From contig MGAG01000011.1 in NCBI GenBank assembly GCA_001789645.1, positions 1 to 32,475 on the forward strand: DNA of 32,475 nt. The letters are read 5' to 3'. The notes under the pieces were generated by a model. That model saw only the letters and a list, made by a program, of their open reading frames with translations. It did not search any database and was not told the origin of the DNA. Origin of the DNA: Candidatus Roizmanbacteria bacterium RIFCSPLOWO2_01_FULL_37_12. Lineage in GTDB: Bacteria > Patescibacteriota > Microgenomatia > UBA1406 > GWC2-37-13. Below, one piece after another: positions 18,056 through 29,687 of this stretch (position 1 is the stretch's first letter; each line of letters opens with the position of its first letter). Position numbers and translations under genes: made by a program.

Positions 18056-18475
18056 ATGAAAAAAACCTGTTATATCTATGCAAGGACAGCGAATGCGCTT
18101 CAGAAGGAAGCAAAAAGAGGAGCAAGTTCGTCAATAAATAAGCAGATTAACGACTGTTCAAAATATGCCAAGAAAAAGAACTTTAAGATACTGGGTATTT
18201 TTAAGGATATTGGTAAAGGAGGTCATAGTCTTAGAAGAAAAGAACTTATAAATTTATTTGCATTAAGCAGAGTTAAACCAGCTACAGCGGTTATTATCAG
18301 TGATACGAGTAGGATCTCAAGAAATTTTACTAATACCGTCAATATTCTAAGTAGACTCTCAAGACATGGAATAAAACTAATTTCCCTTAAAGAAGGAGTA
18401 TTAAGCATGGATGCATATCTTATTAATGTTCTTAATCCAAAAATTTTAGATACAGAGAGGGGGCGATCAAATTGA
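18056..18475 (+). CDS. serine-recombinase N-terminal domain lacking the catalytic Ser
   Basis: The 139-residue protein follows the resolvase fold: CYIYARTANALQ, SINKQINDCSKYAKK, VIISDTSRISRN and GIKLISLKEG. The usual YxRVS is YARTA, so the nucleophile Ser is replaced by Ala12. The Asp of the DRxxR motif is also lost (TSRISR), while Arg10, Arg86 and Arg89 remain. The DNA-binding half is absent. It should be unable to cleave DNA but could still dimerise with the neighbouring integrase, as a regulator or directionality factor. That is inference. Its TGA overlaps the next start codon (TTGA). Confidence 0.75.
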   Translation: MKKTCYIYARTANALQKEAKRGASSSINKQINDCSKYAKKKNFKILGIFKDIGKGGHSLRRKELINLFALSRVKPATAVIISDTSRISRNFTNTVNILSRLSRHGIKLISLKEGVLSMDAYLINVLNPKILDTERGRSN

Positions 18476-18679: not shown

Positions 18680-20020
18680 ATGAGTGATAACAATAATGTT
18701 ATAGACGCTGTGATTGTGCTTAAAATTGATCGGTTTGCACGCAATGTATCTGATTTCGGAAAGATGCTTACTGATTTTAAGCAGAAGAGTATTAAGTTGA
18801 TCTCAGTTAATGAAGGTGATTTAACTGAAGGAACAAGCTTGATACCAAATATATTTGCGAGTGTGGCTCAATGGGAGAGTGAGGTTAACAGTCAAAGGAC
18901 TCGTGATGCAATGATGCAGAAATTCAGAGAAGGCTGGCAACCAACTCCACCTCCAATTGGATATCGAAGTATTGGAGGGGAAAGGGAAAGAAAAACGTGT
19001 GAGCCTGATCCTTATACAGCTCCGATAATAAAAGAAATGTTTGAGCTTTATGCCACAGGCAATTATTCAATTCTTGAGATTACTGATTGGTTGAGGGATA
19101 AAAATATTGTTTCCAAAAGCGGGACACCTTTAGGTCATAGTGTAGTGTGTAATATTCTCAACAACCCTTTTTATTACGGGCTAATTCGGTGGCATGGACA
19201 GTCAAAAATAGGAAATCATAAGCCGATTATTAAAAAGGAATTATATGAAACTTGCCAGTATGTTCTTTTAAAACACAGGGACTTTTTACTTAGAAGACGG
19301 GTGCATGATTTTTTGCTTAGAGGATTTGTTATCTGTGGCGAATGCGGACAAAGATATACTGCAGAGTGGCATAAAAATGAAAAGAAGTTTAAGCATCGTG
19401 GAGGCAAAATCGCTTACTATCACTGCCAAAAAAGGGAGAGAAACGGGTGTCAAGCTCCTTATGTCGAGATGATGATTCTAGAGAAACAGGTAGCAGCTCA
19501 ATTTAAAAACATGCAGTTTTCTCAAGAATTCATTAATTTGGTTGTTGAAAAAGCCAAAAAAAGGCTTGAAGACAATCGTAAATCAGCTTTGTCTCAAAAA
19601 CAATCAATTATTAATATAAAGATGTCATTGGAAGCAAAAAGAAATAAGCTTGAGGATAATTTGCTTGACGAAACTATTGATAGGGAAACGTATAGGAGAA
19701 AGCATGGAGAAATTCAGATGAAAATTCAGAATACTGACACTCAGTTATCCGAGATAGAGGAAAATTGCAATATAGATATGAATTTAATTGAGGAAGTATT
19801 AGCTTTCACAAGAAATATCTATCAAACCTATCTAGATGCCCCAAACTTCTTAAAAAGACATTATATGCGGTTTTTCTTTGAGAAATTTGAAGTTAAAAAC
19901 AAGATAATTGTCAAATCAGTACCTACTCCGATCTTCTTGATATTACAAGCTAATAAGTCGGTTATAATAAGCGAGCTTCAGCTCCCCGGTGTGGATTCGA
20001 ACCACAAACCTCGAAGTTAA
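18680..20020 (+). CDS. large serine integrase, main part
   Basis: The 446 residues complete the integrase begun in the preceding ORF. The remaining resolvase half contains VLKIDRFARN (catalytic Asp and two Arg) and SVAQWESEVNSQRTRDAM. A recombinase domain follows (PPPIGYRS...TAPIIKEMFELYATGNYSILEITDWL), then a zinc ribbon (CGECG...CQKRERNGC, about residues 218-258), a long coiled coil, and a C-terminal strand. Joined length is about 514 residues, normal for phage-type large serine integrases. It would integrate or excise the element. The last 12 residues (LPGVDSNHKPRS) come from the antisense strand of tRNA-Asn. Confidence 0.9.
   Translation: MSDNNNVIDAVIVLKIDRFARNVSDFGKMLTDFKQKSIKLISVNEGDLTEGTSLIPNIFASVAQWESEVNSQRTRDAMMQKFREGWQPTPPPIGYRSIGGERERKTCEPDPYTAPIIKEMFELYATGNYSILEITDWLRDKNIVSKSGTPLGHSVVCNILNNPFYYGLIRWHGQSKIGNHKPIIKKELYETCQYVLLKHRDFLLRRRVHDFLLRGFVICGECGQRYTAEWHKNEKKFKHRGGKIAYYHCQKRERNGCQAPYVEMMILEKQVAAQFKNMQFSQEFINLVVEKAKKRLEDNRKSALSQKQSIINIKMSLEAKRNKLEDNLLDETIDRETYRRKHGEIQMKIQNTDTQLSEIEENCNIDMNLIEEVLAFTRNIYQTYLDAPNFLKRHYMRFFFEKFEVKNKIIVKSVPTPIFLILQANKSVIISELQLPGVDSNHKPRS
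19982..20020. other. probable integration junction: integrase 3' end over tRNA-Asn 3' half
   Basis: The integrase frame reads 39 nt into the complement of the tRNA-Asn gene and stops at a TAA formed opposite the anticodon loop. The tRNA stays complete from the chromosomal side. This is the layout expected for an attachment site located in the tRNA. No second copy of the tRNA 3' end was found by eye on the left, so the other boundary is not located. Confidence 0.5.
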
Positions 20021-20053
20021 CAGCTTCTTGCTCTACCGTTGAGCTACCGGGGA
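19982..20053 (-). tRNA. tRNA-Asn (anticodon GTT)
   Basis: All parts of the cloverleaf are visible. The acceptor stem TCCCCGG/CCGGGGA has 7 bp. The D stem is GCTC/GAGC with AACGGTA. The anticodon loop is CTGTTAA (GTT) on a stem with four good pairs and one A-G at the outer end. A 5-nt variable loop is followed by a T arm TGTGG-TTCGAAT-CCACA. The discriminator is G, which suits asparagine. CCA is not encoded. Its 3' half overlaps the serine integrase gene. Confidence 0.95.
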
Positions 20054-28734: not shown

Positions 28735-29415
28735 TCATTTTAAGTTTAGACTAATCCCCTCAATAAATCCATAAATTTTTCTTAATAAATTAATACTTTT
28801 TCTGACCTTAATTCTAATTACTCCATGGTATTGATCTTTATTTTCATATTCTTTTTTCCAAACTGTTTTTTGAAAATAAGGTTGTGAAAATTGAAATGGT
28901 TGAATATTGAGTTCTTTTGACCAATATGCCACTAAATCATTAATTTTGTTTTGATAAGAAATATTTGCTGTAACTCTAAAGATCAAACTCTTACTCGTAA
29001 TCTGAAAAGATTCTTTTAACCAATAGAGAAAAAATTTTGCCATGCTCATATCGCTCGTTGCAAATCCCACAAGATGATCTTTTTTAAAACCTTCTCCCCA
29101 GTACAATGTAACTCCAATAAGAAAAATTTCTCTTTTGCTTAACTTTCCAATCTCTTTGATTCCTTCATTTTTCAACTCTTTAATTTTTTTATTTAAGCTA
29201 TCTTTCACTCGTTGCAAGTATTTGACTCTGTTGCCGTAATTAACGTCCAGCATTCGCTCCTGAAGAACTTCAATCTGATGAGTAGTAAGTTCGATATCTC
29301 TACACCAAACACTCACGCTTCCTGGAGAAACTTTGAGTATTTCAGCTATCTCTTTAATACTTTTACCCTTTTGTCTTAACTCTCTTGCTTGAAGCTTTGC
29401 CTTTGACTTTGCCAT
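28735..29415 (-). CDS. HTH protein with LAGLIDADG-reminiscent domain
   Basis: The 226-residue protein starts with a clear HTH (LRQKGKSIKEIAEILKVSPGSVSVWCRDIEL, residues 13-45). A domain around FLIGVTLYWGEGFKK...GFATSDMSMAKFFLYWLKESF follows. The first segment and the following strand-helix pattern recall the LAGLIDADG homing-endonuclease fold, but the motif is not canonical. Similar HTH plus LYWGEG proteins are common in CPR genomes without known function. The start lies 12 nt after the 3' end of the intron-bearing tRNA on the same strand, so the two may be co-transcribed. A link to intron mobility is inference. Confidence 0.6.
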   Translation of the reverse strand: MAKSKAKLQARELRQKGKSIKEIAEILKVSPGSVSVWCRDIELTTHQIEVLQERMLDVNYGNRVKYLQRVKDSLNKKIKELKNEGIKEIGKLSKREIFLIGVTLYWGEGFKKDHLVGFATSDMSMAKFFLYWLKESFQITSKSLIFRVTANISYQNKINDLVAYWSKELNIQPFQFSQPYFQKTVWKKEYENKDQYHGVIRIKVRKSINLLRKIYGFIEGISLNLK

Positions 29416-29426
29416 ATATTATTTTG

Positions 29427-29687
29427 TTACGGGGCCGGGAGTTGAACCACGGTCTAGGAGATTATGCAACTGTTTCTCCCGTTACCGAGAGTGTCGGACT
29501 ATATCTTTCCCGATTTAATCGGGATTCGGCGTATAGTCTCTACGGACTCGCCCCACCAGCTGGCAGGGATTGCCTCGGTATTGTCCCAACACAATGCAAT
29601 AGGATTTTACCGATACAGCCGAATTCTCCATCAATAGTTTGATAGAGCCCATTTTGAGCCTCCTGTGCAACCGTACACTACCCCGTA
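29427..29687 (-). tRNA. tRNA with CAT anticodon (Met or Ile2), split by a group I intron
   Basis: Exon 1 is 29657-29687 and exon 2 is 29427-29466 (71 nt joined). The acceptor stem TACGGGG/CCCCGTA is perfect over 7 bp, with discriminator A. The D stem GTGT/GCAC closes a short loop containing GG. The anticodon arm is GGAGG-CTCATAA-TCTCC, giving CAT, with the intron placed between U33 and C34. The T arm is odd: CCG-T-GG against CCCGG, a 5-bp stem only if one U is bulged. The anticodon stem lacks the GGG/CCC of initiators, so this is elongator Met or lysidine-modified Ile. CCA is not encoded. Confidence 0.8.
29467..29656 (-). ncRNA. group I self-splicing intron (190 nt, tRNA type)
   Basis: Read on the minus strand, the catalytic core is visible. 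P3 is ATTCGGC with GCCGAAT. P7 is formed by GAGACTATA with the element AAGATATAGTCC. P8 is the hairpin TCCCGAT-TAA-ATCGGGA, and P9 has a GTAA tetraloop (CTCTCG-GTAA-CGGGAG). The 5' exon ends in U pairing as G-U with an internal guide (GGCU with GGCU), and the intron ends in G. P2 is a 9-bp hairpin near the start. There is no ORF inside. Size and site resemble the tRNA introns of subgroup IC3. Confidence 0.9.

Follow-up and report, generated by a model that had tools for sequence, protein, structure and literature searches.

Group I introns are known in the tRNA-fMet genes of cyanobacteria, some of them with an internal ORF (PMC5733544, PMC3073962), and fMet or Ile2 predictions have been lost to such introns in 36 bacterial genomes (PMC8450103). 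Bacteria of the CPR carry group I introns, often with LAGLIDADG ORFs, in their 16S and 23S rRNA genes; the main text of the paper on these rRNA introns makes no mention of tRNA (PMC11270868). A further arrangement, collaborative (trans) homing, has been described in phages, namely in cyanophage psbA/F-CphI, in T3-like phages and in ICP1 (PMC3984707, PMC10448857).

The locus described here lies in a stretch of 32,475 nucleotides (contig MGAG01000011.1, positions 1-32,475) from Candidatus Roizmanbacteria bacterium RIFCSPLOWO2_01_FULL_37_12, which is called the window below. On its minus strand, positions 29687-29427 read TACGGGGTAGTGTACGGTTGCACAGGAGGCT, followed by 190 nt of intron and by CATAATCTCCTAGACCGTGGTTCAACTCCCGGCCCCGTAA, so that a CAU tRNA, almost certainly the initiator, is split by a group I intron. 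Like the cyanobacterial tRNA-fMet intron, this is a sporadic, laterally transferred group I intron in the initiator anticodon loop (PMC5733544, PMC8450103). It differs from the Synechocystis intron, in which a PD-(D/E)XK ORF (I-SspI) lies inside P1 (PMC3073962), in that it is ORF-less and its candidate endonuclease is encoded outside. With the CPR rRNA introns (PMC11270868) it shares the radiation, the group I class and a possible LAGLIDADG association, but here the host gene encodes a tRNA, and the candidate endonuclease again stands outside an ORF-less intron. The arrangement of an ORF-less intron beside a free-standing gene, here for a putative endonuclease, recalls phage collaborative homing, although the pair in the window is on a bacterial chromosome, the target would be a tRNA gene and the endonuclease activity is putative. 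The initiator-tRNA intron itself is thus known from cyanobacteria, and the Microgenomates (CPR) member is new. In a literature search outside which most subscription papers lay, we found no account of CPR tRNA group I introns or of the tRNA-adjacent ORF family described below. Taken as a whole, the locus is very probably best explained by an initiator tRNA gene that contains an ORF-less, self-splicing intron, which the adjacent protein may mobilise. The features of the locus are as follows.

29657-29687, minus strand: 5′ exon, nucleotides 1-33 of the initiator tRNA, 3′ end GGAGGCU (U33); identical to the intron-less tRNA in G001 and G004
29467-29656, minus strand: group I intron, 190 nt, terminal G, no sense-strand ORF (RF00028, 54.4 bits; homologues; covariation)
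29427-29466, minus strand: 3′ exon of the initiator tRNA, from anticodon CAT through discriminator A73 (ARAGORN; identity to G001 and G004)
29646-29649, minus strand: guide GGCU, forming P1 with exon GGCU (29660-29657), with U33·G at the 5′ splice site (U·G in 13 of 13 genes)
29650-29652, minus strand: AUG, forming P10 with exon CAU (29466-29464), immediately beside P1 (97% of cells paired, 13 genes)
29533-29538, minus strand: P7 5′ strand GACUAU (Rfam alignment; 13-gene alignment)
29497-29502, minus strand: P7 3′ strand AUAGUC, inside AAGATATAGTCC (Rfam alignment; 13-gene alignment)
29476-29491, minus strand: P9 hairpin with GUAA loop (6 pairs, 5 with two-sided changes, 100% paired, 13 genes)
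28735-29415, minus strand: putative homing endonuclease of 226 aa with an HTH, a member of the tRNA-adjacent family (homologues next to intron-bearing initiator tRNAs; weak I-DmoI profile match)

An initial annotation, made from the sequence alone, had proposed a group I intron inside a CAT-anticodon tRNA gene and had suggested an Rfam covariance search for group I introns. This search scored the intron above the gathering score of RF00028 (54.4 against 50 bits, E 3.1e-13), which, together with empty sites in two genomes of the same genus, bears the proposal out. The individual elements that had been named, that is, P3, P7, P8, P9, the GUAA loop, AAGATATAGTCC, the terminal G and the U at the 5′ splice site, were all found, on the minus strand, and the intron was rightly described as 190 nt long, inserted between U33 and C34 and free of an internal ORF (the intron sense strand has none). 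Excision had been predicted to restore a 71-nt tRNA in which all 7 bp of the acceptor stem are paired and the anticodon is CAT, and ARAGORN indeed calls the joined exons tRNA-Met(cat).

The empty sites came from a comparison in which the interrupted gene served as query against 83 genomes of the order and gave matches in 70. In G001 and G004 the tRNA is uninterrupted and 71 of 71 nucleotides are identical to the joined exons. Since CA starts both the intron and the 3′ exon, the empty sites alone permit three junctions; we chose 29657/29656 and 29467/29466 because they place a U at the 5′ splice site and a G at the end of the intron, which upholds the exon junction 29466/29657 of the initial annotation. 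An intron at the same site was found in 13 other genomes; in 12 of them the exons are intact and the intron measures 183-247 nt, and in one, G015, the 3′ exon is truncated. This intron family is recurrent in Microgenomates. The G015 locus (L042, on contig C5) has an intact intron, a truncated 3′ exon and ORF remnants close by, and looks like a decayed initiator locus. Group I introns also occur in the 23S rRNA genes of two relatives (L082, L083).

Covariation was assessed in an alignment of 13 genes, the window's and 12 others. Cells in which both sides of a pair have changed number 62, against 25 ± 4 after shuffling, and none of 500 shuffles reached this count; nor did any shuffle reach the observed covariation score, and the covariation measures taken together lie above all or nearly all shuffles. 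The intron structure is thus not due to chance. Two-sided changes occur at 29 pairs, with 85.9% pairing in P7 and complete pairing in P9, and the terminal G and the U·G splice pair are invariant. P3 and P8 gave low counts, for which misalignment near variable loops is at least partly responsible; the window's own P3 forms a perfect helix of 7 bp. Other tRNA group I introns belong to subgroup IC3.

The gene is probably lost in routine annotation, because three tools fail on it: a default fast-filter Rfam scan of the whole window missed the intron, ARAGORN in intron mode gave a misplaced Leu(caa) call, which we reject in favour of the tRNA-Met(cat) of the joined exons, and a tRNA covariance model run over the whole genome did not list the interrupted gene. 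A match resembling AAGATATAGTCC at C9:88425 of the same genome was considered as a second intron and rejected, since a weak T-box score was all that it gave. T-box-like matches below threshold (43 bits, where the gathering score is 93) are found at L078 601-836 (contig C9 of the window's genome) and at L084.

With regard to the identity of the tRNA, we consider it almost certain that the intron-split gene is the single initiator tRNA (fMet, CAU) gene of this Roizmanbacteria-like member of the Microgenomates. C1×A72 is the mark of bacterial initiators, and it is present at the same locus in deeper relatives (Levy-, Davies-, Gottesman- and Shapirobacteria). In the window, the 1-72 pair is U1-A72, and the anticodon stem (A29-U41, G30-C40, G31·U39) is without the three G-C pairs usual for an initiator tRNA, so it is the other features, together with the lack of another candidate, that identify the initiator. 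Both deviations would suit an elongator Met tRNA or a tRNA-Ile2 (CAU), yet such an assignment is very improbable in view of the C1×A72 of the deeper relatives, of a separate elongator Met gene elsewhere in the genome (with G1-C72), and of a tRNA-Ile(UAU) in a genome where the search for tilS gave nothing credible (one weak match, 20.9 bits). The genome also has fmt, whose match of 150.8 bits lies under the curated cut-off of 201.5. No second, intron-less initiator copy appeared in any intron-bearing genome in our tRNA census (genome searches plus ARAGORN on loci); the assembly is 90.75% complete, and an overlooked second copy would have to be absent from all intron-bearing assemblies. Because no second copy was found, splicing is presumably constitutive and essential. 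The tRNA further has a one-base bulge in the T stem and a short D loop, which, with the truncated 3′ exon of G015, might suggest a decayed pseudogene and an intron that is its relic. This is scarcely credible, since the exons are identical at 71 of 71 positions to intact copies of the genus, the gene is the sole initiator copy found, the splice elements are conserved and intron-less relatives keep the same bulge. As these relatives have the odd anticodon stem as well, both are lineage traits.

We compared the history of the intron with that of its surroundings. The intron tree joins the window to G054, a genome from another genus (support 100/99), and a single clade of the four same-genus introns is rejected (AU p 0.00017). 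In a tree of the adjacent glycosyltransferase, the genus as one clade is not rejected (p 0.16), whereas the clade in which the intron tree unites the window, G054, G072 and G077 is (p 0.003), and a pairing of the window with G054 alone is borderline (p 0.052). The conflict between the intron tree and the flanking-gene tree indicates that at least some introns here have moved between lineages. Among close relatives (L032-L061), the initiator tRNA occurs in either orientation beside the same flanking glycosyltransferase and FtsB-like genes, and so seems to have been inverted.

The neighbouring ORF (28735-29415) starts 11 nt past the end of the tRNA. The eight best-scoring ORFs of its kind in the order, the window's included, all adjoin intron-bearing initiator tRNAs. 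An intact neighbouring ORF is found in 8 of 14 intron-bearing genomes, against none of about 54 intron-less ones (Fisher test about 4e-7, or 3.2e-7 with 56 intron-less genomes, with related genomes treated as independent), and it is missing at the initiator locus in the other six. In GTDB, the subfamily extends through Roizman-, Woese-, Shapiro-, Gottesman-, Ames-, Levy- and Daviesbacteria, where about 31 of 36 loci adjoin an intron-bearing initiator tRNA, nearly always at a distance of 55-140 nt. At most loci the ORF lies upstream of the tRNA and is read divergently from it; the window and three other cases have it downstream on the same strand. In many Levybacteria and Woesebacteria, the ORF adjoins an elongator tRNA-Met as well.

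This subfamily is part of a wider family of tRNA-adjacent ORFs. Counting the members away from contig ends (a few loci represent one genome in two collections), 70 of 75 lie at most 140 nt from a tRNA gene, and by our estimate from two flanks, ~43 tRNAs and ~1,400 genes, at most about 6% of genes should neighbour a tRNA by chance. The five that are not adjacent comprise two halves of broken ORFs, one ORF beside an Rfam intron (L155), one near a contig start (L152) and one that is unexplained (L148). The tRNAs beside the family are initiator and elongator Met, Asn, Gln, Ile(UAU), Trp, Arg, Ala, Ser, Gly, Val and Tyr. In most cases the tRNA follows the ORF immediately and in the same direction, and the ORF often has its stop codon within the tRNA. 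Stop codons at or inside the 5′ end of intron-less tRNAs are seen, for example, with Gln (L107, L108, L114, L216), Trp (L122, L123, L220) and Arg (L124, L125). Among the family-associated tRNAs seen, only initiator and Asn tRNAs have introns.

In about 12 genomes of the order, a group I intron sits between U35 and U36 of the tRNA-Asn(GUU) gene, and in six of these an ORF of the same family is directly upstream. The loci (L164-L182, L109, L112) are in G001:C13, G005:C89, G003:C27, G071:C24, G069:C1, G079:C16, G019, G061, G034, G082, G045 and G018. The window's own genome has a second family member (L223, C10:11463-12011), between tRNA-Phe and tRNA-Ile(UAU). Elsewhere in the window, there are serine recombinase ORFs at 18056-18475 and 18680-20020; the second ends inside an opposite-strand tRNA-Asn gene (19981-20053), which suggests an integrated element with tRNA-Asn as its site.

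The protein encoded beside the intron has a clear N-terminal HTH match, and this is the only part to which Pfam, NCBIfam and PHROGs give a name; its C-terminal domain matches no family in them. The family profile resembles I-DmoI in the second LAGLIDADG helix, in a weak match (E 0.001 and 0.004) over 50-70 residues only, and the invariant Glu of its LYWxEGxK motif aligns with the acidic residue of the second LAGLIDADG motif of that enzyme. Profile comparison with LAGLIDADG_3 gave E 0.14, and a Pfam search of the ORF gave no LAGLIDADG match. The protein departs from I-DmoI in its additional HTH and in a helix that separates the predicted later strands. The AlphaFold models have high confidence (pLDDT 90 and 94), and Foldseek, run with the full and the C-terminal model, found no significant match to any fold or known endonuclease. 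Because the sequence match is weak and Foldseek gave no significant match, we do not file the protein as LAGLIDADG, although it may work like such an enzyme. As an inverted repeat, the anticodon arm would be a plausible target for a homodimer.

From the conserved splice elements, we infer that the initiator pre-tRNA is spliced. P1 (exon GGCU with intron guide GGCU) would set the 5′ splice site at the U·G pair, P7 would bind the guanosine for the first splicing step, P10 (intron AUG with exon CAU) would bring in the 3′ exon, the final G would define the 3′ splice site, and ligation would yield the restored 71-nt tRNA. The intron would spread as DNA: the 226-aa protein, as a sequence-specific endonuclease, would cut initiator tRNA genes that have no intron, in or close to their anticodon arm, and repair would copy the intron and the neighbouring gene together. 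We regard the case for this collaborative homing, in which a free-standing putative endonuclease mobilises an ORF-less intron, as evenly balanced.

The ORF could instead encode a maturase or splicing cofactor and play no part in mobility. It does adjoin the intron in many genomes, and LAGLIDADG-type proteins can serve as maturases (PMC3073962); however, 6 of 14 intron-bearing genomes lack an intact ORF at the locus, and most other family members adjoin intron-less tRNAs (Gln, Ile, Trp, Arg, Ala, Ser, Gly, Val, Tyr), which makes such a role improbable. A somewhat stronger candidate, if still an unlikely one, is a DNA-binding regulator or a site-specific inserting element that lands at tRNA genes, with the co-occurrence of the intron being incidental. 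In keeping with this, the HTH is clear, no significant nuclease fold match was obtained, and nearly all members adjoin tRNAs, whether or not these have introns, and often end within the tRNA; but within the order the initiator subfamily is found only with intron-bearing initiator genes (8 of 8, none intron-less), and the invariant Glu in LYWxEGxK aligns with the second I-DmoI motif.

If the protein is a homing endonuclease, the pattern could be extended, tentatively and with somewhat more doubt than confidence, to the family at large: CPR bacteria might possess a so far unnamed family of endonucleases dedicated to tRNA genes, in which every subfamily keeps to a single tRNA gene (about a dozen tRNA species were seen) and the initiator and Asn subfamilies mobilise the ORF-less group I introns of their tRNAs. 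Collaborative homing would then act on essential tRNA genes of the chromosome, and the catalytic fold might be a divergent one. The locus shows how CPR initiator tRNA genes can escape annotation, and natural pairs of an ORF-less intron and a free-standing gene, with empty sites in sister genomes, offer a test of how composite mobile introns originate. For the organisms themselves, the findings indicate that, in some of the reduced CPR bacteria, translation initiation depends on a ribozyme.
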